Below, one piece after another: positions 14,859 through 44,463 of a stretch of 64,000 nucleotides of DNA. Within the stretch, counting starts at the first letter, position 1, and each line of letters opens with the position of its first letter. Under the pieces are notes generated by a model. It made no database searches, was not told the origin of the DNA, and worked only from the letters and a program-made list of their open reading frames with translations. A program made the position numbers and the translations under genes. Origin of the DNA: Clostridia bacterium (GTDB lineage: Bacteria; Bacillota; Clostridia; RGIG6154); assembly GCA_017410375.1 (NCBI GenBank), contig JAFQQW010000002.1, positions 1-64,000 of the forward strand, given 5' to 3'.

Positions 14859-14889
14859 AAAGGACTTGGAGCTAAACTCCAAGTCCTTT
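14859..14889. terminator. bidirectional terminator (copy 1 of a repeated hairpin)
   Basis: A 13-bp stem AAAGGACTTGGAG / CTCCAAGTCCTTT with a 5-nt loop. The stop codon of the minus-strand AraC gene lies in the loop. The same stem recurs at 20017-20047. Confidence 0.85.
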
Positions 14890-16119
14890 TTTATATTTCC
14901 CGGGTGTCATTCCCGTTTGCTCTTTAAATTTTCGGATGAAATAGTATTCATTTTCATAGCCGATTTGTCCGGCAATTTCTTTGACCGAAAGACTCCCCTG
15001 CCGCAGAAGCTGTTTTGCATGCTCGATGCGGATATTCTGTAAGTCTTTTTTGGGAGACACCCCAAACCGTGCTTTATAAAGAATGTAAAAATATGGTGTA
15101 CTCATATATGCTTTTTTCGCCATAAGCTCTACTGTCCATTTTTCCTGACAGTTTTCTATAATCGCATTTTTCACCGCAATCAGTCTTCTATGCATCGTGT
15201 CCGTAAGGACCGGTCTTTCTTTTATAATATGTATTTTAGCAATACGGAAAAACAACTCGTGAACCAATGCATCGGTAATTTCTTTTTTAAATGTGATTTG
15301 CTGGTTCATCTCGTACTTGATTTTTTGTATAATATCCGTCACAAAATCGGCTTTATACAAGCTATAAGGCATATCATATTGAAGCCTTGTTCTTTTCATC
15401 AAATCAGTCAAATCATCCTGTATTTCCATCTTATCAAACTTAAGCGGTTTACCATTACTTTCAAAACGGCAGGGCGATGCACTTTTGTAAAGGATTAATG
15501 TCGCCGGCTCTGCCGTTATTTTTTCTTTTTTTGTATGAATGATGACAGGCGTATGAAAATAAAGCAGGACTGAATTTCCGTTCGTGGTCTGTATAAGCTG
15601 TGCAGGTGCTTTTTCAGAATTGTGTTCGCCTTCCCCTTCGTGATTTCCGGAGTCTGCCCACTCAAATTTCACATCTGAAGGTCTGGAATACGCACCGCCT
15701 TTTGCAACCAGTCTGAAATACTCGTTGTTTGTTCCGGCAAAATAATAGGTTCCCACCTTTGTCCACGCGCCCTGACGGTCAACCGTTGCTTCCGAAACCG
15801 AAAGCGGAATGTCATGGACCGTTTCACCGTTTGCATACACTTCGCCCGTCATTTTCACAGGATTTTGATCGGCCCCGTATTTGATATTCCAAAAAGAAAT
15901 AGTATACCGACCCGGACGTAAGTTGTACGGTGTATACTGTGCAAACCCCTCCGGCTCAAGACTGTAATAAGAAGCACCTTTCGAAGTAATTCCGGTTGAA
16001 TTCGCCATTCTGGCAGTTTCCCACCTGCCTTCCATATGAAAGCTACAACGGTTTTCCAAGTTGCCCACAGCAGAATCAGGGAGCTTTGAGGACATAATTT
16101 CCGGGTTAATGACAATCAT
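14872..16119 (-). CDS. AraC-type regulator with an N-terminal golvesin/CBM-like domain
   Basis: 415 aa in three parts. Residues about 22-155 match the golvesin-like repeats of the divergent secreted protein next door: QYTPYNLRPGRYTISFWN, IKYGADQNPVKMTG, DRQGAWTKVGTYYFAGT and NNEYFRLV are nearly the same as in its third repeat. Residues about 170-240 resemble the cupin sensor of AraC regulators (VLLYFHTPVIIHT, ATLILYKS). Residues about 315-412 are the double helix-turn-helix (LSVKEIAGQIGYENEYYFIR). No signal peptide or membrane helix is visible, so it should be cytoplasmic. GAGGTG supports the ATG. An extracellular-type binding domain in an intracellular regulator is unusual and suggests that it senses the ligand bound by the enzyme. 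Confidence 0.85.
   Translation of the reverse strand: MIVINPEIMSSKLPDSAVGNLENRCSFHMEGRWETARMANSTGITSKGASYYSLEPEGFAQYTPYNLRPGRYTISFWNIKYGADQNPVKMTGEVYANGETVHDIPLSVSEATVDRQGAWTKVGTYYFAGTNNEYFRLVAKGGAYSRPSDVKFEWADSGNHEGEGEHNSEKAPAQLIQTTNGNSVLLYFHTPVIIHTKKEKITAEPATLILYKSASPCRFESNGKPLKFDKMEIQDDLTDLMKRTRLQYDMPYSLYKADFVTDIIQKIKYEMNQQITFKKEITDALVHELFFRIAKIHIIKERPVLTDTMHRRLIAVKNAIIENCQEKWTVELMAKKAYMSTPYFYILYKARFGVSPKKDLQNIRIEHAKQLLRQGSLSVKEIAGQIGYENEYYFIRKFKEQTGMTPGKYKKGLGV
14887..14991. repeat. 105-bp direct repeat, left copy
   Basis: About 100 of 105 positions are identical to 21819-21923, in the same orientation. It covers the end of the intact AraC gene (last helix-turn-helix and stop region). 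Confidence 0.85.
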
Positions 16120-16137
16120 TCAATCACCTCTGTTTTC

Positions 16138-16166
16138 ATTATATAAGAAATTATAGAAAAAGTCAA
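16138..16166 (-). promoter_or_regulatory. promoter of the AraC-golvesin regulator
   Basis: Minus strand TTGACT, a 17-nt spacer and TATAAT. The -35 hexamer lies inside the left copy of a 15-bp repeat (16156-16170), which suggests autoregulation. Confidence 0.7.
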
Positions 16167-16267
16167 TTTTTTTAAACATAAATATATTTTTTTGCGTTTT
16201 TACTTCTGATATTATTAAGTAAGGAGCATATTTTATATGTATAACAAAAAATGAAAAAGTCAATTTT
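16156..16267. promoter_or_regulatory. pair of 15-bp direct repeats, candidate AraC operator
   Basis: GAAAAAGTCAATTTT occurs at 16156-16170 and exactly again at 16253-16267, with a 97-bp offset, in the intergenic region between the regulator and the 1214-aa gene. The right copy is also the core of an inverted repeat ATGAAAA-N6-TTTTCAT. Widely spaced direct repeats are typical AraC-family targets. A weak plus-strand promoter may lie near 16316-16345. Confidence 0.5.
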
Positions 16268-16368
16268 CATTTTAAATCCCGAAAAAAATGAATCAATTGG
16301 TCGCATGTATGAATTTTGAAAAGCAAAAAAGTGTTTACTTTTAAAATATTCTAAAAAGGAGAAAAAAT

Positions 16369-19300
16369 ATGAAAAAACAAATTTCCATTATCCTGGTAAT
16401 CTGTTTGCTCTTGTGTCTGACACCCACATCCGCACTGGCGGAAGATACGAATTCAGGTGAAAGCGTACAGCTTGTTACCTTTCAGCGCATCGGCACAACA
16501 GACAGCGGATTTTCTCAGGCAGGTTCATCCTGGAAGGATGCAACTATGCCGGATTCTACCGGCGACACAACCAGAGGCGTAAGTAAATACAGCGGTTCGG
16601 TCGGTCATTATGTCCAGTACACGCCCACCAACTTACAACCTGGCTGGTATGATGTTTCCTTCTGGAACATTAAATATCAGGATAGCCAGAATCCCATGAA
16701 AATGACCGCGACCATTTTTTCAGACAGTGTAACAACCGAAAACATTACCTTAGGTGTAAACACCACCTCTGAAGACCGTGGCGGTATATGGACCAAAATC
16801 GGCACCTACTATTTTGCAGGCACCAATGACGAATATTTACGTCTTGTTGCTTCAGGCGGTTCTCATGCCAGAATCGCGGACGTGAAATTTGAACTGAATG
16901 AGAGCTACCAACCGCCCAAAGCGACCTTCCAGCGCATCGGCACAACAGACAGCGGATTTTCTCAGGCAGGTTCCTCCTGGAAAAATTCAACCATAGCGGA
17001 TTCTACCGGCGACACAACCAGTGGAGTAAGTAAATACAGCGGTTCGGTCGGGCATTATGTCCAGTATACACCTAACAACTTACAACCGGGGTGGTACGAT
17101 GTTTCCTTCTGGAACATTAAATATCAGGATAGCCAGAATCCTATGAAAATGACTGCAACCATCTTTTCAGGCGGTGACACAACCGAAAACATCACTTTAG
17201 GTGTAAACACCACCTCTGAGGACCGTGGCGGTATATGGACCAAAATCGGCACTTACTATTTTGCAGGTACCGATGACGAATATTTACGTCTTGTTGCTTC
17301 AGGCGGTTCTCATGCCAGAATTGCAGACGCAAAATTTGAACTGAATGAAAACTACCAACCGCCCAAAGTGACCACACAGCGCATCGACACAACAGACAGC
17401 GGATTTTCCACCTATGGCGACAACTGGAAACCGGCCAGCATGCCGGATTCTACCGGCAATACTACAAGAGGTGTAAGCTTGTACACCAATTTGACAGGCT
17501 CTTATGCCCAGTACACACCCAAAAATCTGGAGCCGGGGTGGTATGATATATCTTTTTGGAATATCAAATACAGCACAAACCAAAATCCCATCAAAATGAC
17601 CGGTACCGTTTTTGCCAACGGCAAAACAAAGGAAAATATTAAACTTCCCGTAAATACCGAGACAGAGGACCGTCAAGGTATATGGAGTAAAGTCGGCACC
17701 TATTATTTCAGCGGTACCGACGATGAGTATTTCAGGCTTTTTGTATTTGAAAACGGAGAATATGCACGTGTTGCGGATGTAAAATTTGAAAAAAACGACA
17801 GTTTTGTTCCGCCCCCGAGCTTCGGTGATACCGAAATTTCCTTAAACGGCACCGACCGCTTCCACGCAATATCAAAAGAAGGAAATTATTCGGTATACAT
17901 TAACAAAACAGCTGCAACGGACGGACTTTTAACTTTATACGCAAACGGTGCGGAAATTGCCAAGCATTACACAAATGGCGTCGAAACCGGAAAGATTTAT
18001 CTCGGTACTTTTTCCTTCCCGGACGATGCGGATGTTGAGCTTTGCTATGTCCCTCTCACAGGCTCTGCGCCCTCACCCGTAAGTACAGTATATTTTGTAC
18101 CCGCAAGCGGTTCTTACGCCATATATAAAATGTATAATCTGCAAAAAGATGAAGAAGTGTTCTTCTTCAACGCAGGCATGCATAAAATTACGGCAGACAT
18201 TACCAATAATTCAGGCAGTAGCGGCTATTACAAGCTGATCGGTGCAGTTTACGAAAACGGTATTTTAATAAAAAGCGTATCCAGCGAGCGAATATATCTT
18301 GAAAACGGCGAAACCGAAAAGCTTGAAGTACAGGTACCCATCACCAACTCCAAAAACAATACAGAACTGAAAGCTTTTGTGTGGGATGATTTCTCTAATA
18401 TTCGCCCCAAAGTTGTTGCGAAAGCTTTTCAGGCACAGGATGACCGTATTTTCGGTGCTGTAACCATAACGCCCAATACATTTGACAGTACAGGCAGTTG
18501 GACCATAGCCGGAAATTCTTCGGCTTTCACCGGCACCATTCTGTCAGGGAAAACTTCTTCAAGTGCAGAAACAGAACCTGCAACCGTATCCCTTAAGCTG
18601 CCTGAAAACGACTACAGAATATGGGTTCGTACGATAAACTATACAACCAATCCCGATGCCCGTTATTTCAATGTGCGCGTAAACGGCACCGTTTTGGATA
18701 AAACCTTCGGTCAGATAGGTCAGGACGGTCTGTTCTGGGAGGACGGTGGCGTTGTAGCATTAAACGGCGAGACACTGCTTGAAGTGCTTGACACCTCTAA
18801 ATACTACGCAAAAATTGACAGCATTGTAATTACCGACGATCTGGATTACACCCCTGCCGATTCCTTCGAACAAATAACCGAACACGCACCCATACTGACT
18901 AAAAACCCCTCTTCCATGACAGAATCCGCAATGATGGCAGATTTCACCATGGACAAAAACTATGTTGGCGGAAACTACATCTTACATGAAAAAGGAAATA
19001 ATACGGTTCACATTTCGCCCGACTTAAGCGATACAAGTCTTAGCGATGGTTGGTTCTATTGGAACTTTAAAGCAACAAGCGGCTCTGACAGAACTGTAAC
19101 CTTCAAGATTACGGGATGCACACAGGTTATCGGCGCGAGTGGTGCTGTGTACAGTACCGATGGCGGAAATAACTGGTCTTATATTACCGAAAGTGCAAAA
19201 AAGACACAGTTCAGCTATGATTTCAAGGCAAACGAAACAGTACAGTTTGCGGTAACCATTCCGTACCAGTATAGCAACCTGACATCTTATATAGGCACGC

Positions 19301-20013
19301 TTTCGAGCGACAGAGTGGCAGTTTCCACCCTTTGTAAATCGGAAGAAAACCGAGATGTCCCTCTTGTAACCATTGGTAATCCCGATGCAGAAAAGGCAGT
19401 TATACTGACCTCCAGACATCACTGCTGTGAGACAACAGCCTCTTATCATTTGGAAGGCATCATGGATTATCTGTCCCAGGATGCCCCCGATAGTTTGTTT
19501 GACACCTATTGCTTCTACATTGTGCCTATGATGGATGTGGACGGTGTAGAAAACGGCGACCAGGGCAAGGGTCGTGCTCCGCACGATCACAACCGTGACT
19601 ATCAGAAAGACCTCTACAGCTCTGTCCGTGCACTCAAAGCATTTGTAGCGGATAAGGATGTGGAATTCTTCTTAGACCTGCATTGTCCGATGCTTCAGAC
19701 ATCTAAACCCTACCTGTACTACTCCACCGAGGACAAAGATGCGGTTGCTGACTTTAGTGCAATACTTGCAAATGCCACCGCAAACAGCGAATATTCCAAC
19801 CCTATCATCTTTGACGGAAGCCGTGACTACGACTCGGGTGATCACTATGCTGATTGCTCCAGAGGTTACTTCTTCCTGGAAGTTGGTTCTCCCTTCGCTA
19901 CAACCTTGGAATTCCCCTACTCAGGCGAAGTAGGCGATGAATACACCGTGGAAAGAATTTACAACTTTGGTACAGATCTGGCAAAAGCAATTGAAACCTA
20001 TATTACGAAATAA
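16369..20013 (+). CDS. secreted M14 carboxypeptidase with three golvesin-like repeats
   Basis: 1214 aa. Signal peptide about 1-24 (ending SALA). Three tandem 149-aa golvesin/CBM-like repeats start near residues 38, 187 and 336. Further beta domains occupy about 485-690, and a second CBM-like type about 698-830 is shared with the giant proteins at 22457 and 44554. A beta domain at about 850-985 resembles the N-domain of cytosolic carboxypeptidases (WFYWNFKATSG, PYQYSNLTSYIGTL). The M14 catalytic domain follows: H1018 and E1021 in HCCE, N1075-R1076 in HNRDY, H1105 in DLHCP, and catalytic E1181 in TLEFPY. All key residues are present, so it should be active outside the cell, on a peptide, glycopeptide or modified side chain. 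A GGAG site lies 8 nt before the ATG. Confidence 0.85.
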   Translation: MKKQISIILVICLLLCLTPTSALAEDTNSGESVQLVTFQRIGTTDSGFSQAGSSWKDATMPDSTGDTTRGVSKYSGSVGHYVQYTPTNLQPGWYDVSFWNIKYQDSQNPMKMTATIFSDSVTTENITLGVNTTSEDRGGIWTKIGTYYFAGTNDEYLRLVASGGSHARIADVKFELNESYQPPKATFQRIGTTDSGFSQAGSSWKNSTIADSTGDTTSGVSKYSGSVGHYVQYTPNNLQPGWYDVSFWNIKYQDSQNPMKMTATIFSGGDTTENITLGVNTTSEDRGGIWTKIGTYYFAGTDDEYLRLVASGGSHARIADAKFELNENYQPPKVTTQRIDTTDSGFSTYGDNWKPASMPDSTGNTTRGVSLYTNLTGSYAQYTPKNLEPGWYDISFWNIKYSTNQNPIKMTGTVFANGKTKENIKLPVNTETEDRQGIWSKVGTYYFSGTDDEYFRLFVFENGEYARVADVKFEKNDSFVPPPSFGDTEISLNGTDRFHAISKEGNYSVYINKTAATDGLLTLYANGAEIAKHYTNGVETGKIYLGTFSFPDDADVELCYVPLTGSAPSPVSTVYFVPASGSYAIYKMYNLQKDEEVFFFNAGMHKITADITNNSGSSGYYKLIGAVYENGILIKSVSSERIYLENGETEKLEVQVPITNSKNNTELKAFVWDDFSNIRPKVVAKAFQAQDDRIFGAVTITPNTFDSTGSWTIAGNSSAFTGTILSGKTSSSAETEPATVSLKLPENDYRIWVRTINYTTNPDARYFNVRVNGTVLDKTFGQIGQDGLFWEDGGVVALNGETLLEVLDTSKYYAKIDSIVITDDLDYTPADSFEQITEHAPILTKNPSSMTESAMMADFTMDKNYVGGNYILHEKGNNTVHISPDLSDTSLSDGWFYWNFKATSGSDRTVTFKITGCTQVIGASGAVYSTDGGNNWSYITESAKKTQFSYDFKANETVQFAVTIPYQYSNLTSYIGTLSSDRVAVSTLCKSEENRDVPLVTIGNPDAEKAVILTSRHHCCETTASYHLEGIMDYLSQDAPDSLFDTYCFYIVPMMDVDGVENGDQGKGRAPHDHNRDYQKDLYSSVRALKAFVADKDVEFFLDLHCPMLQTSKPYLYYSTEDKDAVADFSAILANATANSEYSNPIIFDGSRDYDSGDHYADCSRGYFFLEVGSPFATTLEFPYSGEVGDEYTVERIYNFGTDLAKAIETYITK
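16480..17820 (+). repeat. three tandem 447-bp coding repeats
   Basis: Repeats with an exact 149-codon period begin at 16480, 16927 and 17374. The first two are close to identical at DNA level over long stretches, and the third is diverged. This points to a recent duplication of the binding module and possible copy-number variation. Confidence 0.85.
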
Positions 20014-21800: not shown

Positions 21801-21923
21801 TTACGGCACAAGCGTTGATTTTTTATACTGCCCGGGTGTCATTCCCGTCTGCTCTTTAAATTTTCGGATAAAATAGTATTCATTTTCATAGCCGATTTGT
21901 CCGGCAATTTCTTTGACCGGAAG
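21801..21923 (-). pseudogene. remnant of an AraC regulator (C-terminal end only)
   Basis: About 40 codons encode the last part of an AraC helix-turn-helix (VKEIAGQIGYENEYYF then QTGMTPGQYKK), differing from the intact regulator at 14872 mainly at the very end. The rest of the gene is missing; upstream the sequence runs into the barstar promoter. It is a scar of duplication or deletion, not a functional gene. Confidence 0.8.
21819..21923. repeat. 105-bp direct repeat, right copy
   Basis: Partner of 14887-14991 with about five mismatches. The start-to-start distance is 6,932 bp, and the two copies enclose the AraC-golvesin, M14 and SLH genes. Confidence 0.85.
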
Positions 21924-22456: not shown

Positions 22457-25400
22457 TTAGTTTAAAGGTTTAACGGTACCGCCCTTAACAGTTCTTACAG
22501 AACCGTCTGTTGCGGTAAGCTTTAATTCGTAGCTGAACGGTGCGTTCACATCGTCAGCCTTTACGATAAATTCGTAAGGATAGCTTTCGGTAGAAACCGT
22601 TTTCTTTTCACCGCCTGCGGTATAGGTCATTTCAACCTTTGTTACAGCCGACGGTTTGTCGGTTGCATAAACGTATACATAGTAATCGTTTTCGTTCATC
22701 TGCAGAACGATTGCTTTACCGTTGCCATGGTCATGGTAGGTAGAGCCAATTTCTACGTCTGTGCCCTCTAAGGTGTAGTCAAAGCCTGCAAATGCCGGAG
22801 CCTTAACTTCGGGTGCATCAATTGCTACCGTAATCATGCCCTTAGCAGGAACGGTTACGGTCACCTGACCGTTTTCAACCGTTGCTTCAGACTTGTTGCC
22901 TGCCGCATCATAAATGGTTGCAACGCCCGAAACTGCACCAACCTTTTCACCAAAGGTCAAAGGCGTTGTTACATCGGATGCAGACTGATTCATGAGCATA
23001 AATGCGGCTTTGCCGTCTTTTCTTGCACCAACCCAGTCAATCTGCAGATTGCCGGAATCTAACACCCCTTCGTCAATCCACAGCCACATATCATTCATGT
23101 CATACACATTGCCCGGTGCAAAGCCGTAGTGGTTTGCATAGAAGAATGCATAACCGCTCTGACGAACATAGGGGAATTCAACTTTCTGACCCGAACGGTA
23201 GAATGCCTGGTTGATTAAGAAGTCTTCCAGCATTGCCATAAACGGCGGTAAGTGGTGGTAGTAAACACCCGATACGTCAGGTCCTTTATAAGGATAGTTT
23301 TCCTGATTCTGGATGTTGGTTGCACCGTATCTGCCGTAGTAGTAGCCGGAGTAGTTTGCAAATCTGCCCACCATTGCATTTTCTGCAACGGTTGCTAAGT
23401 ATTCATCACCGGTGTATGCCGCAATTTTCAGCACATCACCAACCCACATGCTCATGATGATGTTACCGGAGTAACCGCCCATTAAGAAGGTGGACGCCTG
23501 CTCTAAGCCTAAGCCGGAGCGTGCCGCTGTCCATGCGTCAACGGTTTCGGAGTAGTCGGTCTGGTCGTTAGGACCTAAAGGCTTCTGCTCGTCACCAACC
23601 CAGCAATGATAGCCGTTAAAGGTGTTTTTGGTGTTGTAGTTTACAAGAAGCTGTTCTGTTCTCTGGTCACCGGTTACGCCGGGCACCCAAAGGGTGGTTA
23701 CCAGATACTGTGCGGTATAGTATGCCGCATCTAAATAACGCTGTTCGCCCGACAATTCATACATATCCACAAGTGCCGGTAGGTTTGCGTAGTAGGTGGT
23801 GTAAATAAAGTCACCGAAAGGCTTTTGCTGTGTCTGATCACCATAAACGGTGCTCTCTAAATATTCGTCAGCCTTCTTCATAGCGCTTTCCAAATACTTC
23901 TTATCACCGGTGTACTGATACAGATACATGTCATCCGAGAAGGGAGTCATGGAGTTGTAGCCGTTGATATTCTTACCTGCCAGGGTGTTCTGAATACCGG
24001 TTTCCAAAAGATACGGAACACGGCCACGGGTCAGTTCGTACAAACCGCCACGTACGTTCATGTTGTAAATATTGATGAAACTACCGATGGGATACGGAAT
24101 CTTTTCGATAGAAACGTAACCGTTGGATGCCGCCAAACCACCTTTGGAGTTGAACTGCAGATTACCGCGGGTCATGAAGTTTGCAATGGTCGGCAAGGTT
24201 CTTTCCACCAGGTAATTTTCATCTTCTGTTAAGAGATAAGTCTGCAGAGCCTGCATCGGGTCTGCAACTGCTGTGGTATTCTTACTTTCAATGTTCCAGT
24301 AAGACTTATCCAGCGGATCCCAACCGGAAAATTCGGGGTCTAAGGAGAGCTTTCTGGTGTTGAAGATTGCTTCGTTCAAGGACGCATAAGTATGCTGTCT
24401 GTAGCTGTCCACACCATAGATATCCTGTGCAATGAATTTATAGCTGTCAAACCAGTCTGCTACACGGGAAATAACTCTGTAGCTGAACGAAGTGGTCTGA
24501 CCGGGAGTGAGGTAGGAATCAGGCGCACCTAAAATCGGTGCAAATGCGATACCCTGATAACCGCCGTCTGTACCCTTCATACCGATACCGTATTCTGCAT
24601 CGGTACGTTTTACTACATCCACACGGGTCATGGACGGGTCGATTACAACACCCTTGGTAACCTTTGCGGTGGTGTATTTGTTGTTTTCAGGCATGGTATA
24701 GGTGCCCATGGGGGTAAACAGATACTGTTCGGAATAAATACCGCCATCTTCGTCTACACGTTTAGACTGTACACGGAAAGGTGCTAAAGCAAAATAGTAC
24801 TGTTCAAAGGTCATCTCATCGCCTTCTGCCGCACCGATGGTGTAGTAGCCATCCATCGTAAAGGACGCATCTACCGAAACTTTAGGAGAATCGGTTTCAT
24901 CCACGATTTCCCAAACTGCATTTATCGTACCAACGTCTGTAGACGCGGTGATTTTTACAGCTTTATCGGATATAGCTTCTATACTTGTGGGCACAAACCA
25001 TTTCAAAACGCCTGCCTTGAATACATCTACACCCATATAAGAGGAAGCCGGCTTATCCGCAGCAGTTAAATACTGGGACTGGAATACATATCTGTCCTGG
25101 GGCGCAATACCCAAAGAAACGGCATTGGCACGGATAACCATATAACCTAACTGTTCGTTTCTGTTGTTGGTCTTAACCCAGGTGCCGTTTACATTGTTAT
25201 AAATTTCGTTCTGGATTACAACACCGTTAGAGGTCTGAACCTGATAGAACTTAACCTGTACTTTATCGTTTCCGATTACGTTTTCAGAAAGAATTGTACC
25301 CTCTTCTCTTGCGTATGCAGGATAGAGCGGAACTTCCACATCAAACGCACGAACAGGTGCTGCCTGCGCAATCAGTTCGCTGTATGCGGTAGAGGGCTGA

Positions 25401-27886
25401 TAATCCATATCGTCTGTAATCAGAATCATGTCACATCTTGCATAGAAGCCGGATGTATCTACCAGTTCTAAAATATGTTCGCCTGCAGTTAAATCCACAT
25501 CGCCTGCAGTCTGCCAGCTGAAGCCGTTGTTCCCGTGTGTACCCATCAGACCGCCAATCTGCTTGCCGTCAATCTGAATGGCAAAGGTACGCTTGGAGGT
25601 ATAGCTGGAGGTATAGTCACGGCTGTGCGCAAATACTCTGTACTTGCCGTCTTTTACAACATTGATTCTTGCTTTTGCGTTCTTTGTAAGCTCAGGTCTG
25701 CCATCCTCAGGCGCTGCATTGTCAGCCTCAGGAATCATACCGCGCATTACACCGCAATCAAAGCTGCCGGTTACCACACCTTCTAAGTCCCATGTACCTA
25801 CATCATAGTAGCTTTCGGGAGTCAGCATGATAAGCTGCGGCGGAATTTCCGCATAAATCCAAACAGTCTGGTTTGCATCATCCCAGGAAACCTTTGCACC
25901 AAGTGCTTCGGATACGAAACGGAGCGGTACTAAAGTTCTGGAATTAACTAAAGTTGCGGGAGAATCCAATGTATATTTTTCACTGCCAACCTTTGCTTCG
26001 GTAGAATCAATGGTTAAGCGGATATCGGTACCGTTACGGGAACCGGTTGCGGTTTGTGTTTCATCGTCCCAGCCAACGGTACAGCCGAGCGCTTCAAAAA
26101 TTGCGCGGAACGGCACCATGGTTCTGTCGTTAATGAGTACCGGCGGAACATCAAAGGTCATATAAGAACCGTTTAAGTTGATGGCAATTTCATCCGCCGG
26201 ACGGTTCGGGTCTTTTTCTGTATTTACCTTTGTGGGACGCATATCACCCATAGCCACTAAGGATTTAATACCGTTGTTGGAGCTGTCGGGAACGAAATCT
26301 AAATTATCGGTAATGATAATCATATCCCATCTGCCGTAGTTACCGGTATGGTCAATAATCTTAATTTCATTCTGTCCTGCAACAAGAGGCAGAACAGCTT
26401 CTTCAAAGCCCCAGTTGGTACCATGTACACCGCATTCTCTTGCGTATACACCGCCCACATGAATCTGGAACTTTCTGCCACTGTTGGCAGGCTGGTCGAA
26501 GCTACGAACCATTACCTTATAGATACCGGTCTTGGGAACGGTAACCGTAAAGGTTGCAGGTTCATTCAAATGCGCTCTGCCGTCCGCCTTGGACATAATG
26601 ATATTCGCTTGCGGACTGCCGTGGGTAATGGGCGAAATCTGCCAGCTACCTAAGTTGGACTCGTCAAAATCCTTTGCAGAAACGACAATATATTCATATT
26701 CGTCGTCTACAAGCGTCTGATCCGCTTCGGGAACATTGGGGTCTGTGATCAACCCTGTAATATTGCTTTCATAAGTACCCTTTACAATGGTTGCCGACTG
26801 GTTTTCAACCGATGCATTTTCGGGCGGAATGTAGGACGGGCTGTTGGTCAGCAAAACGCCCTGAATACGACCGTAGTTTGCACCGCTGTCTACCACTTCA
26901 ACCTGCACATCGCCCTTTTCAAGGTCGATTTCACCGCAGTATTCCCAGGCAAAGCCGTTGACGCCATGCGCGCCCAGAGTACGTTCGGTAAGTTTTCCGT
27001 CTACAGCTACTTTATAGGTACGCACGCCGTCACCGTAGTCACGGGTCCATGCCCACAAATAATATTTACCGGCTGTATTGTTTTTGAAAACAGTAATTGC
27101 AGGCTTCATATTATCAGGCTTCTGTCCGCCGGGAGAACGGAGTACATCCAATGTCGAACCGTCTCTTCCGGGAGAAAGCCATGTACCTAAATGATCACCA
27201 AAAGCGCTTGCACCCAAGAAATATACTTCCTTTTTTTGGGGTTCTTCGCCTTTGGGAAGGTTTTTGTTCACAACGATTTCTTCTTTTTCCACTTCTTCCA
27301 CTTTGGAAACGATTTCGGGTTTGTTTCTTTCAAGCGCACCGCTCATACCCGAAGCATCGTCCGGAAGCCTAACGGTGGGGTTGGTGGAAAGGGCTACCGC
27401 CTCAACACGGGCATAGTTTGCCGAAGAGTCTACCAGCGAAATTTTCACTTCACCTTTCTTAACTTCCACCTTACCTGCTTCCTGCCATTTATATGCATCT
27501 ACACCGTGGTTACCCACTGTGTTGGGAAGCAAGGTATCGCCTACCTTAATCTGACAGGTACGTACACCGCTTACAACCGGATTACCATTGTTGTCAACAC
27601 CACCTGCAAAATCACGCACGCGAACCCACACCGTATAGTTTCCGTTTTCCGGAACCTTAATGGTTACGGTTGCATCCTTCGAATTTGCAGGCTTGTTGCC
27701 GCCGATGGCACGCAATACATACCCATAAGCACCATGTTCTCTGTTTGCCAAAGACCATGTGCCTTTGTTTGTGAAAGCGTCTGCACCAAGCATGATTGTT
27801 GTGTCTGCCGCAAAAGCGGTAACGGTACCGAGCACGGACAGTAACATACAAATTGCAAGAAGCAAACTCAAGCTTTTTCTGAACAT
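22457..27886 (-). CDS. giant secreted multidomain protein, candidate polysaccharide-active enzyme
   Basis: 1809 aa. Signal peptide about 1-27 (TAFA-A). Four CBM-like beta domains lie at about 30-175, 220-355, 398-535 and 683-830, each with a VWVRxRD-type strand and a (G)xHGxxxxxW turn. Between the third and fourth is a copper-amine-oxidase N-terminal-type domain, about 565-680 (TMVPFRAIFEALG, TLVPLRFVSEALG). A beta-rich region spans about 845-1165 and an alpha-helical, toroid-like region about 1170-1605 (EQRYLDAAYYTAQYL, VYYHHLPPFMAMLEDFL). Two C-terminal beta domains follow. The beta plus helical core recurs in the proteins at 38559 and 44554 and recalls sugar-processing enzymes with an (alpha/alpha) barrel, but I cannot name a family or catalytic residues. 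Perfect promoter upstream; divergent from an AraC gene. Confidence 0.75.
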   Translation of the reverse strand: MFRKSLSLLLAICMLLSVLGTVTAFAADTTIMLGADAFTNKGTWSLANREHGAYGYVLRAIGGNKPANSKDATVTIKVPENGNYTVWVRVRDFAGGVDNNGNPVVSGVRTCQIKVGDTLLPNTVGNHGVDAYKWQEAGKVEVKKGEVKISLVDSSANYARVEAVALSTNPTVRLPDDASGMSGALERNKPEIVSKVEEVEKEEIVVNKNLPKGEEPQKKEVYFLGASAFGDHLGTWLSPGRDGSTLDVLRSPGGQKPDNMKPAITVFKNNTAGKYYLWAWTRDYGDGVRTYKVAVDGKLTERTLGAHGVNGFAWEYCGEIDLEKGDVQVEVVDSGANYGRIQGVLLTNSPSYIPPENASVENQSATIVKGTYESNITGLITDPNVPEADQTLVDDEYEYIVVSAKDFDESNLGSWQISPITHGSPQANIIMSKADGRAHLNEPATFTVTVPKTGIYKVMVRSFDQPANSGRKFQIHVGGVYARECGVHGTNWGFEEAVLPLVAGQNEIKIIDHTGNYGRWDMIIITDNLDFVPDSSNNGIKSLVAMGDMRPTKVNTEKDPNRPADEIAINLNGSYMTFDVPPVLINDRTMVPFRAIFEALGCTVGWDDETQTATGSRNGTDIRLTIDSTEAKVGSEKYTLDSPATLVNSRTLVPLRFVSEALGAKVSWDDANQTVWIYAEIPPQLIMLTPESYYDVGTWDLEGVVTGSFDCGVMRGMIPEADNAAPEDGRPELTKNAKARINVVKDGKYRVFAHSRDYTSSYTSKRTFAIQIDGKQIGGLMGTHGNNGFSWQTAGDVDLTAGEHILELVDTSGFYARCDMILITDDMDYQPSTAYSELIAQAAPVRAFDVEVPLYPAYAREEGTILSENVIGNDKVQVKFYQVQTSNGVVIQNEIYNNVNGTWVKTNNRNEQLGYMVIRANAVSLGIAPQDRYVFQSQYLTAADKPASSYMGVDVFKAGVLKWFVPTSIEAISDKAVKITASTDVGTINAVWEIVDETDSPKVSVDASFTMDGYYTIGAAEGDEMTFEQYYFALAPFRVQSKRVDEDGGIYSEQYLFTPMGTYTMPENNKYTTAKVTKGVVIDPSMTRVDVVKRTDAEYGIGMKGTDGGYQGIAFAPILGAPDSYLTPGQTTSFSYRVISRVADWFDSYKFIAQDIYGVDSYRQHTYASLNEAIFNTRKLSLDPEFSGWDPLDKSYWNIESKNTTAVADPMQALQTYLLTEDENYLVERTLPTIANFMTRGNLQFNSKGGLAASNGYVSIEKIPYPIGSFINIYNMNVRGGLYELTRGRVPYLLETGIQNTLAGKNINGYNSMTPFSDDMYLYQYTGDKKYLESAMKKADEYLESTVYGDQTQQKPFGDFIYTTYYANLPALVDMYELSGEQRYLDAAYYTAQYLVTTLWVPGVTGDQRTEQLLVNYNTKNTFNGYHCWVGDEQKPLGPNDQTDYSETVDAWTAARSGLGLEQASTFLMGGYSGNIIMSMWVGDVLKIAAYTGDEYLATVAENAMVGRFANYSGYYYGRYGATNIQNQENYPYKGPDVSGVYYHHLPPFMAMLEDFLINQAFYRSGQKVEFPYVRQSGYAFFYANHYGFAPGNVYDMNDMWLWIDEGVLDSGNLQIDWVGARKDGKAAFMLMNQSASDVTTPLTFGEKVGAVSGVATIYDAAGNKSEATVENGQVTVTVPAKGMITVAIDAPEVKAPAFAGFDYTLEGTDVEIGSTYHDHGNGKAIVLQMNENDYYVYVYATDKPSAVTKVEMTYTAGGEKKTVSTESYPYEFIVKADDVNAPFSYELKLTATDGSVRTVKGGTVKPLN

Positions 27887-27945: not shown

Positions 27946-28043
27946 CGGATTTTGATTATTCGATTCTATACTTATTTTACCATATAGATTGCGGTTTCAC
28001 AATTACTCAAAATATAAAAAACTTATCCCAAACTATATTTTTC

Positions 28044-28072
28044 TTGCGTATATTGAAAAAATATGCTATACT
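28044..28072 (+). promoter_or_regulatory. promoter of the AraC gene at 28094
   Basis: TTGCGT, a 17-nt spacer and TATACT, 22 bp before the start codon and about 100 bp from the divergent promoter of the giant gene. Confidence 0.7.
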
Positions 28073-28093
28073 GATATTAAAGGAGGTGCATAT

Positions 28094-28840
28094 ATGTTCC
28101 AGTCTGTTCCCGTGGTGCAATCTATTGCACTGTTTTACAGAATTCACCGGCACAAAGGCTTTGTGGCAGAAATTCAGAACCGAAAGAATTCATCCTTGCT
28201 GTTTTGCCTGCACGGAAAGCTGAAATTTGTGACCAACAAAAACGAAGAATTCTATGTAGATAAACTGCATCCTATTTATGTGCCTGCCGGTTCAAGCCAT
28301 CAGCATTTTTGTGTAAAGGACTGTGAGTGTATTCTGTTTGACTTTTATGAACAGACACCCGGTGACAGTATGGCAAACACCGCACCGGTAAACGAAAAAG
28401 AATTGCTCTCCATATATGCTGAAATTACCGCTTTGAGTGCGTTGCCCTCCGTTCCGAATCAGGCGAAAATTATATCCTTGTTTTATCAGCTCTTGTCCCT
28501 TTGCGCCCAGTCCGCACAAATCGGGCAAAACCGATTGCTTGCTCCTGCCTTACAGTACATTTCTTTAGAGTTCCAGAATGTGGATTTATCCCTTCAGCAG
28601 GTGGCAGACGAATGCCACATCAGCAAAATCTATCTGCACAAATTGTTTGTGCAGGAATTCGGCATCACCCCCTTTCGCTACATCACCCATCTTAGGATGG
28701 AGCGGGCAAAGGTTTTGTTGCAGGAAAAATATCCGCCAAAGCAGGTGGCAAAGCTTGTGGGCTACGGCGATATGTACGCCTTCAGCCGTGCCTACAAACG
28801 TCATTTCGGCGTCCCGCCCAGAAATGATTATATCAAATAA
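28094..28840 (+). CDS. AraC family transcriptional regulator
   Basis: 248 aa with an N-terminal cupin-type sensor (about 1-110; LFCLHGKLKFVTNKNEEFYV, PAGSSHQHF) and a C-terminal double helix-turn-helix (about 150-245; LSLQQVADECHISKIYLHKLF, KQVAKLVGYGDMYAFSRAYKR). The start is the ATG preceded by AGGAGGTG; the longer frame runs into the promoter. It is divergent from the 1809-aa gene, whose expression it probably controls in response to a sugar or other small ligand. Confidence 0.85.
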   Translation: MFQSVPVVQSIALFYRIHRHKGFVAEIQNRKNSSLLFCLHGKLKFVTNKNEEFYVDKLHPIYVPAGSSHQHFCVKDCECILFDFYEQTPGDSMANTAPVNEKELLSIYAEITALSALPSVPNQAKIISLFYQLLSLCAQSAQIGQNRLLAPALQYISLEFQNVDLSLQQVADECHISKIYLHKLFVQEFGITPFRYITHLRMERAKVLLQEKYPPKQVAKLVGYGDMYAFSRAYKRHFGVPPRNDYIK

Positions 28841-38535: not shown

Positions 38536-38560
38536 AAGAGCCTTTCGGCTCTTTTATTTT
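38529..38560. terminator. bidirectional terminator
   Basis: AAAATAAAAGAGCC and its complement around a TTTC loop. It abuts the stop codon of the 1633-aa gene. Confidence 0.8.
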
Positions 38561-41500
38561 ATTTATGTACTTTGGTTAAGGGGATTTCAAGCTCTGCGCC
38601 GTCTAAGGTAACTAAGGTTGCGGAGAAGCTGAAATCATCTGCATAAGGCAGGGTGAATTCAAAGGGATGCTTTGCATCGGTTACCGTTTCGGTCTTACCG
38701 TTTGCGGTGTAAGAAACGCGCATTTCCTTTACCTGTGCAGGTGTGGAGTCAGCATAGATGTAAACGGTTTCCGTACCTTCGCCAAAGCCTAAAACCATAG
38801 AGCGGATATTACCTGCGGCGGTAGGCTGGAGATTGGAGCTTTCTGCGCCAAACATTGTGCCGTTTTCAGCAGGTGCAAGCTTTGGTGTAATATTTACGCC
38901 GTGAATGGCAAGGGCATATACGCCTTCCTTTGACACATTTACCCTAAAAGTACCGCCTGTGATTTGCTCAACATGCTTAAGCTGTGCATTATTTACCCAT
39001 ACTTCTGCATTGTATGCTTTGTTTTTATCCATACCAAAGGCTTCTAAGTTGATTGCAACATTTGCCGTTACATCCTTTTTGGACTGGTTGGTAAACACAA
39101 TACATAAGGTATCGTCTGCTCTGTAGGTTGCATAGTTCAGCTGCGGATTGTCAATGCTGAGTGCCTTTGCCGGCATATACGGATATGCGTTTTCGATATG
39201 GTAGAACTTACCGGGAAGTGCACCATAAGCATTGGTTTTAACATACGCATAAGAATCCACATAAATACCGTTGGTCTGTACCTGTCCGTTGGTCTTGTCA
39301 TACACATCGGCATATAAGAAGTCCAAAAGCATGGTGATGTGCGGCCAGATGTGGTTGTAATGGAACGAATTATAGGTTAACTGTTCATAAGTCTTAAAGG
39401 GGAAATCCTTTGCCATATACACATCGGTGTAGCCGGTGTTGATGTGATAGCCCGGGAAGTTTTCATATCTGCCCACCACCGCGTGACGTGCTACACTCTT
39501 TAAGAATTCGTCATCGGTGTCTGCGCCGATTTTCATGAAATAGGGCGCATGGAACGACATGAAAATACCTCTGTGACCGTGGCTGGTAAATGCCGCTTCT
39601 GCATGCAGACCGATTTCAGAAACCTTCCATGCCTCAATATCCTTTTCTTCCGCTTCCATGGGCATGATGCCGCGGTTATACGCATATTTGGGTGCCACAT
39701 TGTTTTCGTTGATGTGTACCGTTCCGTCCGGCACGCCGGGGGTGTACCATAAGAACATCGCAAACCGTCTTGCACCAACGTGTGCCGCATCTAAGTATTT
39801 CTGCTCGCCCGTCATTTCATACAGCTCATAAAGCTCTGTATAGTCGGGACAGAAGAAATGCCACCAGCTGGAGCTTACGCTGTTGTAGTCACCCGAAAGA
39901 CCCGAAAGTCTGGTTTCGATATATTTATCTGCGCCTTTTTTTGCAATTTCTAAATAGCTCGGGTCGTTGGTTGCCTTGTAATACACCATCGCCTGCTTCC
40001 AGTCGGTTTTGGCAGGACTTCCCTTTTCGGTCATTTTATCATAGTATGCCTTAACCGTGTTACCGCTCATCTGATAAAGTGCCGCATATTCATTCATTTT
40101 CATAGCAGGCACACCGAGGGCGTTACTGCCCTGGGATGCGGTTTCCACATATTTGTAGGTTAAGTCGTTTCTGGACATCATGTATTCCGAAAGCGGCAAC
40201 GCACGATTGTCGTAAAGAGCTTTGTCGTCATAAACCAGCGCTAAAGATGCCGGATGTACCGCCGACACGTTTTTGGTGGTACCGGGGGCATCGTTTTCGT
40301 AAGAGAACCCTTTGTATTCGGGCATAAACTTGGAATAATAGTCGTTCATGCCGTAGCCAATCATGTTTTCAATGACCTCGTTCATGGAAATGTTGCCGTT
40401 GGAACGGAAATCATAAAAACCGTAGTTTTCGGAAATCAGATCGGGCAAAATCGTTGCCACATCGCCTTTATACACCGAAATTTCGGTGAGCAGGGACACG
40501 GAATCGCCTGCTTTTTTATTGGAGGAGGTGCTTCCGTAGAACGGCAGATATATCTGGGGCTGAATGTTGCCCTCTTTAGACTTTAATACCGCACCGTAAC
40601 GGGAATTTTCGTAGGTGGGAATTTTATAGGGCAAATCCTCCTGCGCTACACCATAGAAAAGGGTATAGCCCTTTGTACGAACTGCCGTACCTGCTGCAGG
40701 CAGATGGTATTCAGGCGTCATATAGGACTGGAGCGGGAATCTGCGTTCGGTCCAAACCATGGGCTGCCAGATTTCCTCCGCCTCAGCTTCGGTAAAGGAC
40801 GGGAAGCCATTATAGCCGAAGGTGAAATAACCGTCTTTTTTGAGGGTATACTCAATTTTAAGCTTGGGATGTGCCGTGCCCTGCTCTAACGAAAGGGTAA
40901 ACTTCGGCACGCCGTATTCGTCCCCTGCAGAAGTAAACACAATCTCGGTATCGGTTGCCGAAACAGAGAAATTGTTGTAGTCTACCACAATACCTGCGCC
41001 AAACAAATTTTCGGTTCTGCCCTCTACCTTGCTTTCCATTTTATGGAATTCATGAGCTTCGCCAATCACCGCACCCTCTGTGCCGTAAAGAGTCCAGGAG
41101 GGAATGTTATAGGTCACTCTGTCTTCTTCCACATTCTGTTGCTTCAAGTCGGGCGCTTTTGCGTTATAAACTGCTCTTCCGCTCGCCTTAAATGCATAGT
41201 TCTGTCCGTCGGTTGTAAGCAAAATATTCCCGTCAGGCGAAACAGATACGACGTATCTTTCATTTTTCAATACATAATTTCCGTTTTCCTGTGCAACCTT
41301 TTGGGACATGGAAAGACGCATAATGCGTTCCATAACCGTTACCGCTTCGGCACGGGTCATGTTATCCGATAAACCCAAAGCACCGTTCGAGCCAATCATA
41401 AGCTTAGACGAAACCACCGCTTCTGCCGCAGTTTTGTCTGCACCCGAAAGGGCATTTAATTCTTCAAACTTGTTTTCTGTAAGCGGTTCCGGCTTGTAAC

Positions 41501-43460
41501 CCAAAACCTGCATGGTGTTATACAGCACATGGGCTAAGGTTAAACGGGTTGCCGTTTCTTCAGGATTGCCGGCCACAGGCGTATTGCTTAAAAGTCCTGC
41601 CGATTCCGCACCCGAAACATACGGGTCGTACCAATTTGCACCGCTTGCGCCCTGCGGAAGCTTTAAGAGATTTAAAAACATGGTTGCAAGCTCGGCGTTG
41701 GTTACCTGCGCATCCGGCTCGAAAGCAGTTGCACTTTTACCGTTGATAATGCCTCTTTGTACTAAATTTTCCACCGTAGCTTTCGCCCAGTGTCCCTGAA
41801 TATCCGGGAAAGTGTTGGCATTAAAAGGGGTGGATTTCTCGGTTGCCCAATCGGGTGCCGGAGGGGCATCCTCGGGAAGCTCTGCGCGCTTTGCTTCGGC
41901 TTCCATGGGCTTGGGCAATTCCTGTGTATCGGGAGATAACTGGAACATCACAGACCCGACTCGGGTGTTTACCGTGGTATCCACTTCCCCTTTTACCAAC
42001 TCCACATATTCATTTCCGCTGCCACCGAATTCAAACACACCGCAATCATGCCAGCCGGACACATACTGTCCTGCATGGGTTACCACCTGCTCAGTCACAC
42101 CGCTGTCGGTATGGATTTTTACGGTGATGGTTTCGTTGTTGTTGGCATAGAACAAATTAAAAAACAATACCCTTACCTTACCTGCCTGCTTGATGCCGGG
42201 ACGGTATTCCGCACGGTCACCGGTGGTAGCAGTATAATAGGTAGAATCTTCATTATAATCCTTCAGCGCGCCGGATTTACCCCACACGCCAAAGAGGGTT
42301 TTGTTGTCGCCATCTTTAATGGGCGAAATAATAATAGTCTGCTTGTCCTGGCTGACAAACACGTTTGAAGGGCTGCCACTCGCCTGCTGTTGTTGCTGCG
42401 CCTGTTCTTCCTTTTCATCCTCTGCAGTATAGCCGATGACCTCTGTGCCTTTTAAAGTGCCCTTTACAGAAACCGATGCACCTTTTTTGGCATAGCCCAC
42501 CGATTCTACACGGCTGTTATAGCCATAAGAAGCACCGATACGGGTCATGCGGATGTACTGACCCGCCGAGCCGTCTGCTTTAAAAGTACCTAAGTGATAC
42601 CAGCCCTGGGGATTGTTATTATGGTCAACCGAGTAAATAAACTTTTTACCGCCCACATACACTTCAAGCTTTGCGGCACCGTCATTTTTGCCGTCCGAAT
42701 GATTCATCAGGTAGTAGTACAAATCCTGCTCTCCGTCTACGCCTGACAAATCCCATTTACCCCATTCATCCTTGATGTTTGTGTATTTCATATAGGTCAC
42801 CGCACCCTTGAATGCGGGAGATGCCTTCCAGTTTGCGGGGGTCTTTACGGTGAATTTATCCGAATCTACGCTGATGATGCTAAGCTCGCCCTGCTTGATA
42901 ACCGATTCACCCGACTGACCGCCGTTTGCTTTCGTGTTATCCGCAATGTCGCCTTTGCTGTCTACCGCCGCGCCTTTCGGGGCATAGCCGACTGCGGATG
43001 CGCGGGTATAAAAGCCGTAGGTCGGACCTGTACGGCTAAGCTTTATGTACTGGTCTTTTGAACCGCTTAAAGAAAAGGTGCCGATTTTGTACCAGCCGGT
43101 TTCCTTTGCGTTGTGATCCACCGTAAAGGAAGTGGTTTTGCCGTCAATGCAAACTTCTAATTTTGCGGTGGCATCATTTAAGCCGTCCGAATGGCTGAAC
43201 GCATGATAGTATAAGTCCTGCTCTCCTTTTACGCCCGATAAGTCCCACATGCACCATTCATTTTCAATATTGGTAAACTGCAGTTTACCGCCGGGGCCTA
43301 TAAGGCTTGTAGATTCTTTCCAGTTCGCCGCGGTTTTCACCGAAAATTGCGCAGAGCCTGCGCCAATTACGGTAAATCCGTCCGCCGCAACCGCCTTCAC
43401 GGGCAGAAGCATAGCAGAAATCAGCGAAAAAGCCAAGAAAATTGCTAAAAATTTCTTCAT
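38559..43460 (-). CDS. giant secreted protein with internal SLH domains, candidate polysaccharide-active enzyme
   Basis: 1633 aa. Signal peptide about 1-26 (AVA-A). Two related beta domains lie at about 28-160 and 195-325 (WDLSGVxGEQDLYY, GWYxxGTF), with a third of golvesin-like type at about 365-508. SLH repeats at about 550-718 (FPDIQGHWAKATVENLVQRG, NMTRAEAVTVMERIM) are unusual in being central rather than terminal. A beta-rich region spans about 725-1000, a helical toroid-like region about 1020-1395 (EQKYLDAAHVGARRF, FHYNHIWPHITMLLDFL), and two C-terminal beta domains follow. Core and tail are homologous to the proteins at 22457 and 44554. It is probably wall-attached and acts on a polymer outside the cell. 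Divergent from an AraC gene. Confidence 0.75.
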   Translation of the reverse strand: MKKFLAIFLAFSLISAMLLPVKAVAADGFTVIGAGSAQFSVKTAANWKESTSLIGPGGKLQFTNIENEWCMWDLSGVKGEQDLYYHAFSHSDGLNDATAKLEVCIDGKTTSFTVDHNAKETGWYKIGTFSLSGSKDQYIKLSRTGPTYGFYTRASAVGYAPKGAAVDSKGDIADNTKANGGQSGESVIKQGELSIISVDSDKFTVKTPANWKASPAFKGAVTYMKYTNIKDEWGKWDLSGVDGEQDLYYYLMNHSDGKNDGAAKLEVYVGGKKFIYSVDHNNNPQGWYHLGTFKADGSAGQYIRMTRIGASYGYNSRVESVGYAKKGASVSVKGTLKGTEVIGYTAEDEKEEQAQQQQQASGSPSNVFVSQDKQTIIISPIKDGDNKTLFGVWGKSGALKDYNEDSTYYTATTGDRAEYRPGIKQAGKVRVLFFNLFYANNNETITVKIHTDSGVTEQVVTHAGQYVSGWHDCGVFEFGGSGNEYVELVKGEVDTTVNTRVGSVMFQLSPDTQELPKPMEAEAKRAELPEDAPPAPDWATEKSTPFNANTFPDIQGHWAKATVENLVQRGIINGKSATAFEPDAQVTNAELATMFLNLLKLPQGASGANWYDPYVSGAESAGLLSNTPVAGNPEETATRLTLAHVLYNTMQVLGYKPEPLTENKFEELNALSGADKTAAEAVVSSKLMIGSNGALGLSDNMTRAEAVTVMERIMRLSMSQKVAQENGNYVLKNERYVVSVSPDGNILLTTDGQNYAFKASGRAVYNAKAPDLKQQNVEEDRVTYNIPSWTLYGTEGAVIGEAHEFHKMESKVEGRTENLFGAGIVVDYNNFSVSATDTEIVFTSAGDEYGVPKFTLSLEQGTAHPKLKIEYTLKKDGYFTFGYNGFPSFTEAEAEEIWQPMVWTERRFPLQSYMTPEYHLPAAGTAVRTKGYTLFYGVAQEDLPYKIPTYENSRYGAVLKSKEGNIQPQIYLPFYGSTSSNKKAGDSVSLLTEISVYKGDVATILPDLISENYGFYDFRSNGNISMNEVIENMIGYGMNDYYSKFMPEYKGFSYENDAPGTTKNVSAVHPASLALVYDDKALYDNRALPLSEYMMSRNDLTYKYVETASQGSNALGVPAMKMNEYAALYQMSGNTVKAYYDKMTEKGSPAKTDWKQAMVYYKATNDPSYLEIAKKGADKYIETRLSGLSGDYNSVSSSWWHFFCPDYTELYELYEMTGEQKYLDAAHVGARRFAMFLWYTPGVPDGTVHINENNVAPKYAYNRGIMPMEAEEKDIEAWKVSEIGLHAEAAFTSHGHRGIFMSFHAPYFMKIGADTDDEFLKSVARHAVVGRYENFPGYHINTGYTDVYMAKDFPFKTYEQLTYNSFHYNHIWPHITMLLDFLYADVYDKTNGQVQTNGIYVDSYAYVKTNAYGALPGKFYHIENAYPYMPAKALSIDNPQLNYATYRADDTLCIVFTNQSKKDVTANVAINLEAFGMDKNKAYNAEVWVNNAQLKHVEQITGGTFRVNVSKEGVYALAIHGVNITPKLAPAENGTMFGAESSNLQPTAAGNIRSMVLGFGEGTETVYIYADSTPAQVKEMRVSYTANGKTETVTDAKHPFEFTLPYADDFSFSATLVTLDGAELEIPLTKVHK

Positions 43461-43590: not shown

Positions 43591-44463
43591 ATGAAGAAAA
43601 ATATTTTCATTCAAAACATGGAGCAACAGCGCTATGCGGAGATTACCAAACCGCTTTACGAACCCGTCCCACGCATTCCGTTGGGGGTTGAAAACTGCGG
43701 AAACGCCCGAATTTTTATGCAATTTAAAAGCATGGAAACCACCCATCGGGGTTTTGTGTGCATGTATGTGGATGAGGGCGAGGGAATCATTTCGTTCGAA
43801 AACAAACACATTTCTTTAAAGAAAGGTAATCTTTTATGCTATCGGGCAACCAACGCAATAATTAAGCTGACAGCCCTTAATCAGTCCTGGTCCTATAAAT
43901 GGATTGACATCAACGGTGATGCCTCTCTTTTTTATTACCGCGAAATTTGTAAGGATATGTTCCCCTCGGCAGTCATTTACAACATGCCTCCCGACACCTT
44001 TTTTCATTATTATAACAGACTGATAAAAAATCTGCTGATTGAATCCAAAAGTGCCTGCTTTAAAAATGCTTCTGTTTTAACGGAATTTTTAACCACCATT
44101 CTTTCGGGTCCCGAGGCACTCCCCCGGGAGGAAGGCAAATACGCCAAAAATTTTGCTACTCTTTTTACATATATGGAAAAGCACTATTTCAACCCCTTGA
44201 CCATTGATGATTTGGCTGCAGTATTCGGCTTCAGCAAATATCATTTTATCCGTGTATTTCAAGAGTACACAGGTGTTTCTCCCATGAAATATCTTTGCAA
44301 GCTCAGAATCGGCAAGGCGGCAGAAAGCTTAGTACTTTCAGACCGCTCGGTAGACGAAATTGCACGCATTGTGGGCTACAACTCCACCTCCCATTTTATC
44401 AGCTATTTTAAAGAAAACACCAACATGACACCTCTGCAATACCGAAAGAATTACAAGAAATAA
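43591..44463 (+). CDS. AraC family transcriptional regulator
   Basis: 290 aa. N-terminal cupin-like sensor about 40-150 (CMYVDEGEGIISFENKHISL, WSYKWIDINGD) and C-terminal double helix-turn-helix about 190-288 (LTIDDLAAVFGFSKYHFIRVF, RSVDEIARIVGYNSTSHFISYF). GGAGGAAA precedes the ATG. It lies between two giant secreted proteins, divergent from one and directly upstream of the other, so it may control both. Confidence 0.87.
   Translation: MKKNIFIQNMEQQRYAEITKPLYEPVPRIPLGVENCGNARIFMQFKSMETTHRGFVCMYVDEGEGIISFENKHISLKKGNLLCYRATNAIIKLTALNQSWSYKWIDINGDASLFYYREICKDMFPSAVIYNMPPDTFFHYYNRLIKNLLIESKSACFKNASVLTEFLTTILSGPEALPREEGKYAKNFATLFTYMEKHYFNPLTIDDLAAVFGFSKYHFIRVFQEYTGVSPMKYLCKLRIGKAAESLVLSDRSVDEIARIVGYNSTSHFISYFKENTNMTPLQYRKNYKK

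Follow-up and report, generated by a model that had tools for sequence, protein, structure and literature searches.

The analysed stretch of DNA, referred to below as the window, comprises 64,000 nucleotides at the start of a contig from the draft genome of a Clostridia bacterium. It contains a gene encoding an AraC-family regulator and, facing it, a gene encoding a large secreted protein with a zinc carboxypeptidase domain, named here the enzyme (Table 1). Both open reading frames have the coordinates and strands given in the original prediction, and the two genes are divergent, with 249 bp between them.

Table 1. Features of the regulator/enzyme locus, in window coordinates.
Feature	Position	Strand	Basis or remark
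AraC-family regulator, 415 aa	14872..16119	-	ORF; order: golvesin-type domain, low-confidence linker, eroded cupin, HTH
AraC helix-turn-helix (HTH) DNA-binding domain, residues 331-412	14884..15129	-	Pfam HTH_18; 38/45 conserved positions kept
Cupin-like region, residues ~179-246, subfamily motif HDWFH lost	15382..15585	-	8/21 conserved positions kept
Linker, residues ~158-178, partly low confidence	15586..15648	-	pLDDT <50 at residues 158-170
Regulator residues ~24-157, predicted CBM-like beta-jelly roll of golvesin type	15649..16050	-	blastp; AF2; xanthan lyase match
Sigma-70-type promoter-like site of the regulator, TTGACT-17-TATAAT (11/12)	16138..16166	-	consensus match only
Candidate operator copy 1, GAAAAAGTCAATTTT	16156..16170	+	exact 15-nt direct repeat; overlaps the -35 of the regulator itself
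Candidate operator copy 2, identical 15 nt	16253..16267	+	enzyme ATG lies about 100 bp downstream
Secreted M14 protein (the enzyme), divergent from the regulator, 1214 aa; signal peptide at the N-terminus, golvesin repeats 1-3 and Peptidase_M14	16369..20013	+	ORF, Pfam, hydropathy
Enzyme golvesin repeat 1	16486..16920	+	hmmsearch
Enzyme golvesin repeat 2	16933..17367	+	hmmsearch
Enzyme golvesin repeat 3, nearest to the regulator domain	17380..17817	+	58% identity; hmmsearch
M14 zinc carboxypeptidase domain	19297..19926	+	Pfam PF00246, 48.1 bits vs cut-off 21.6

The frame of the regulator is unbroken and has a plausible ribosome-binding site and promoter, with an SD-like AGAGGTGA directly 5′ of the ATG and a terminator-like stem at the end of the gene. 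The Pfam models HTH_18 (residues 333-411) and HTH_AraC matched its C-terminal part above their cut-offs (5e-20 and 1e-17, respectively). This double HTH domain places the protein in the AraC/XylS family, and as the assignment rests on the HTH it is unaffected by the loss of the cupin described below. As predicted from the sequence alone, neither a signal peptide nor a membrane helix was detected in the regulator by hydropathy (maximum over 19 residues 1.1, versus 2.5 for the signal peptide of the enzyme). A hidden earlier start with a signal peptide was considered and rejected, as in-frame stops lie directly 5′ of the ATG and this ATG has an SD-like site. In the AF2 model of the full-length regulator (mean pLDDT 84, pTM 0.50), the jelly roll, the low-confidence linker, the short strands of the cupin region and the helical HTH form distinct predicted units, the relative placement of which is not fixed by the model given its low pTM. 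Foldseek matched the whole model with AraC-family regulators and with the dimerisation domain of E. coli AraC. Also, a fragment of 105 bp with 95% DNA identity to the 3′ end of the regulator gene (89% over 37 HTH residues) was found at 21817-21921(-), between an SLH gene and a large golvesin gene. We read the fragment as a leftover of a recent partial duplication.

In the enzyme, Pfam recognized Golvesin_C over three stretches and Peptidase_M14 at residues 977-1186, and its sequence shows an HxxE motif in RHHCCE. The nearest paralogue of the enzyme lies on contig C42, beside spore germination genes and without an AraC neighbour. A compact M14 relative without golvesin repeats was also found, a 367-aa ORF (L081, G000:C35:4744-5769) that matches only the C-terminal part of the enzyme (861-1212, 31%).

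The original prediction held that the N-terminal part of the regulator, residues about 22-155, closely matches the three repeats of the enzyme. This was confirmed by blastp, which aligned regulator residues 32-157 with enzyme residues 352-478 (58% identity, E 3e-43), 33-180 with 55-194 (49%, E 4e-41) and 33-153 with 204-324 (53%, E 2e-40). Three matches at E values of about 1e-40 or better exclude chance similarity; the domain itself spans residues ~24-157. The Pfam Golvesin_C model (PF25275) did not match the regulator domain; enzyme repeat 3 also falls below its cut-off (23.4 bits), which indicates that the model is weak for this golvesin subfamily. The domain, which is of full length, was identified as golvesin-type from its homology to the enzyme repeats and from its predicted fold. 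Modelled alone with AF2 (pLDDT 82, pTM 0.80), the domain has as its closest solved structure, according to VIA-align, the C-terminal domain of Paenibacillus xanthan lyase (6F2P residues 906-1040; Z 12.2, rmsd 2.5, 124 residues), followed by CBM35/CBM36 domains (Z 8-10). The predicted fold is of the expected type, and because identity reaches 58%, it is safe to assume that the enzyme repeats share it. For carbohydrate binding by the regulator domain, a predicted CBM-like fold alone is no proof.

The regulator domain groups with the enzyme repeats and with the C42 paralogue in a single clade (support 100/99). It keeps 47 of the 63 columns that are invariant in enzyme repeats 1-3 and in this paralogue, and 25/26 of the invariant residues common to golvesins more widely; the stretches FWNIKY, QNP, KMT and DR-G-W are among those kept in common with the enzyme. 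Other residues invariant in the subfamily are altered (e.g., W71R, Y59F, N109S, T110E), so that the ligand preference of the regulator may differ from that of the enzyme. Protein identity between the domain and the repeats is 53-59% and third codon positions agree at 44-45%, with dN of 0.35-0.42 and dS of about 1.8-2.8. These saturated synonymous sites imply that the domain and the repeats separated long ago, and some of their divergence may predate the fusion. A recent copy of enzyme repeat 3 was rejected as the source of the domain, given this saturation.

The genome-contig search found a single close relative for the AraC part of the regulator, in an uncultured Clostridia genome (L027), and it is the same as the AraC protein of G002, the sister genome in the window's own genus. 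This protein has no golvesin domain, and its gene is convergent beside Ppx/GppA and aminotransferase genes, which are neighbours in the window too. In view of these common neighbours and of the common genus, we took it as the positional orthologue of the regulator. As it lacks the domain, the domain would have been added to a pre-existing AraC gene within this lineage, making the fusion lineage-specific. The relative may instead have lost the domain, but this is less probable, because the domain is absent from all of the 17 homologues collected. At the N-terminus, these homologues have a short conserved stretch (...WPEK...F...R...), which in the fused regulator has been eroded or replaced. The original prediction had coupled absence of the fusion from close relatives with an assembly join: the fusion is indeed absent from the sole orthologue found in the genus, but such a join is unlikely, and we regard the fusion as almost certainly real.

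It had also been predicted that the regulator keeps a separate cupin region and HTH. The HTH is intact and a cupin region is present, still predicted as short strands, but the cupin core is eroded and no Pfam cupin match was obtained in the regulator. Among positions that relatives conserve, those kept in the cupin numbered 8/21 in the regulator and 16/22 in the orthologue L027, and those kept in the linker 10/20 and 17/18. For cupin and linker together, the regulator thus keeps 18/41 positions versus 33/40 in L027 (Fisher p 0.0005); for the HTH the figures are 38/45 and 37/46 (p 0.78). The L027-type cupin core is absent, 13 of the 21 positions differing, including H228F, W230K, F231M and H232E in the HDWFH motif. 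The branch of the regulator is about five times as long as that of L027 (2.08 vs 0.39) in a tree that flags the placement of the regulator as unsure. This pattern of erosion fits a handover of sensing from the cupin to the golvesin-type domain, which we propose from the sequence comparison; a switch of the cupin itself to another ligand would fit it too.

In the genome (2.77 Mb, 69 contigs), golvesin matches number 103 and AraC-type matches roughly 90-100. That golvesin-like modules are normally extracellular, as the original prediction assumed, holds well here: among the 29 golvesin ORFs with a readable start, an N-terminus resembling a signal peptide was recognized in 28 by a simple hydropathy criterion, and the sole exception is the regulator. 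At least 8 further golvesin genes lie next to an AraC gene in divergent orientation, each of these AraC proteins being without a golvesin domain. One example in the window is the gene at 38559-43460(-), divergent from an AraC gene at 43591-44463(+). The sister genome shows the same divergent AraC/golvesin layout (L062). The pairing of a divergent AraC gene with a secreted golvesin gene is thus recurrent in this genome, the regulatory link being putative. Another divergent pair in the window joins a large secreted protein, 22457-27886(-), and an AraC gene, 27989-28840(+). Secreted golvesin proteins are strongly expanded in this lineage: sister genome G002 has 33 matches to the 103 counted here, and at a stricter threshold any match was found in 9/391 genomes of the class.

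The fusion itself was seen once, in one draft genome. A combined golvesin and cupin query of 391 class genomes matched this genome alone, and no second golvesin-AraC fusion was found in nearly 800 sampled class and phylum genomes. At the thresholds used, Golvesin_C was present in 9/391 class genomes and 9/398 phylum genomes, in ORFs of 348-1890 aa. No AraC domain was found in the short golvesin ORFs inspected (three from G002 and, from other genera, the six shortest). These searches scored no more than about ten golvesin candidates per genome, so that fusions in golvesin-rich genomes could escape, and the collections contain one genome per species with 6 genomes from this order, which makes the rarity provisional. 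No relative was found among viral contigs, nor any paper treating golvesin and AraC together in the open-access literature.

The intergenic region contains an exact 15-nt direct repeat (Table 1), and a repeat of such length arose in 15/3000 dinucleotide shuffles. We consider it a candidate operator, as a lead only. Its first copy overlaps the -35 of the regulator and would thus suit autoregulation. The 15 nt hold a TTGACT -35-like element and may partly be promoter sequence. The sole further exact copy in the genome lies on contig C9 (L072 5218-5232), 16 bp ahead of the ATG of a gene for a secreted golvesin protein; this gene has no nearby AraC neighbour, and 19 nt are common to the C9 copy and to copy 1 of the window. 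Copies with one mismatch elsewhere in the genome numbered 8, versus 5 for the control; as this is near chance, no regulon is claimed. Also, positions 16248-16273 form a perfect 10-bp inverted repeat with a 6-nt spacer, AAAATGAAAA-AGTCAA-TTTTCATTTT, which encloses copy 2 and might serve some other dimeric regulator as its site.

We propose, with a probability of about one half, that the golvesin-type domain of the regulator senses a ligand in the cytoplasm and that this sensing is tied to the facing enzyme, which is the best explanation of the locus. The fuller version is more tentative: the regulator would have taken the carbohydrate-binding-type domain of the secreted enzyme as its sensor and given up its cupin, so that regulator and target would read the same ligand, each on its own side of the membrane. 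The ancestor would be an AraC protein that sensed through a cupin and was encoded beside the Ppx/GppA and aminotransferase genes; in this lineage it would have gained an N-terminal golvesin-type domain of the subfamily of the facing M14 enzyme. Selection would then have kept this domain while the cupin core was lost and the DNA-binding domain stayed intact. Outside the cell, the golvesin repeats would hold the enzyme on a glycan or glycopeptide, soluble pieces of which would be released, imported and bound by the regulator domain in the cytoplasm. Binding would alter the conformation or dimerisation of the regulator at the divergent promoter region, possibly at the candidate direct-repeat operator, and the regulator would adjust the enzyme gene and its own gene. 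In this scheme we infer ligand binding, the identity of the ligand, the operator and the direction of control.

The domain could instead be an oligomerisation or stabilising module that took over the dimer role of the eroded cupin, the signal arriving by another route or the regulator being constitutive. N-terminal domains of AraC proteins often dimerise, and conserved positions were lost in cupin and linker alike, as this explanation would lead one to expect. Nevertheless, we find it unlikely: the 47/63 invariant residues kept, including stretches shared with the enzyme, exceed the needs of a scaffold, and although the genome offers many golvesin domains, the regulator has one from the very subfamily, a rare one, that occurs in the facing enzyme. 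Slightly less probable is a functionless domain joined by a chance rearrangement, with a regulator that works through its HTH or is decaying. The long branch of the regulator would agree with this, as would the 105-bp AraC fragment, a sign that the locus rearranges. However, the 415-codon frame is open, conservation of the HTH is normal, and the protein sequence of the domain has been kept despite saturated synonymous sites, bearing in mind that part of the divergence may predate the fusion.

Feedback by the enzyme precursor is improbable. In that case the regulator domain would pair with the repeats of the unexported enzyme, tying transcription to secretion; the two proteins are encoded by neighbours, have domains of the same subfamily and coexist in the cytoplasm before export. 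The logic would be comparable to that of AraC-type activators under the control of secretion chaperones or anti-activators. Binding of golvesin to golvesin is without support, however, and secreted precursors are usually held unfolded until export, which makes a folded partner unlikely. Finally, an assembly artefact that fused two genes is very improbable: the repeats of the neighbouring enzyme gene could confuse an assembler and the fusion is seen in one genome only, but the DNA of the domain, about 60% identical to the enzyme gene, matches it exactly over 21 nt at most, the genes are oppositely oriented, and the regulator gene lies deep inside a 77,888-base contig with its frame intact.

If cytoplasmic sensing by the borrowed domain is true, nature would have built a sensor for a regulator of the simplest type by taking over the module with which the controlled enzyme binds its ligand, and ligands of the enzyme repeats should induce the regulator. 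The fused regulator and the unfused orthologue from the same genus constitute a before-and-after pair. Also, a genome with about 100 golvesin matches, many AraC genes and several divergent pairs is suited to the study of AraC-golvesin matching.

The golvesin/Xly domain was described as carbohydrate-binding in secreted lectins of commensals and was noted in xanthan lyase (PMC9166713). Its CBD-like family (PF25275; IPR033803, CBM6-CBM35-CBM36_like_2) is homologous to the enzyme repeats, and the regulator fold is nearest to the C-terminal domain of 6F2P; secreted otherwise in this genome, on the regulator the domain would stay cytoplasmic. Like AraC/XylS proteins with a cupin sensor (E. coli AraC, Rns), the regulator has a C-terminal domain with two HTH and an N-terminal beta-barrel region, and its gene is divergent from its probable target. 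Unlike them, it has an additional N-terminal golvesin-type jelly roll and has lost the core motif of the cupin subfamily. Carbohydrate-binding modules can work inside the cell, as CBM48 does in AMPK-beta, and in ROK-family repressors and kinases a regulator and a metabolic enzyme share a ligand-binding fold. These families are nevertheless unrelated to the regulator, and neither combines an AraC protein with a module taken from a secreted enzyme. The closest likeness in logic is with the RsgI anti-sigma-I factors, which also carry a binding module akin to modules of the enzymes they control; the GH10 module of RsgI6 of Clostridium thermocellum was reported to be 57% identical to Xyn10D (PMC4711584). 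RsgI proteins span the membrane and display this module outside, whereas the regulator is a soluble one-component DNA-binding protein without export signal and without an RsgI-type transmembrane segment. Thus, a sensor borrowed from its target is already known in membrane-bound RsgI, and the cytoplasmic AraC version appears to be new.
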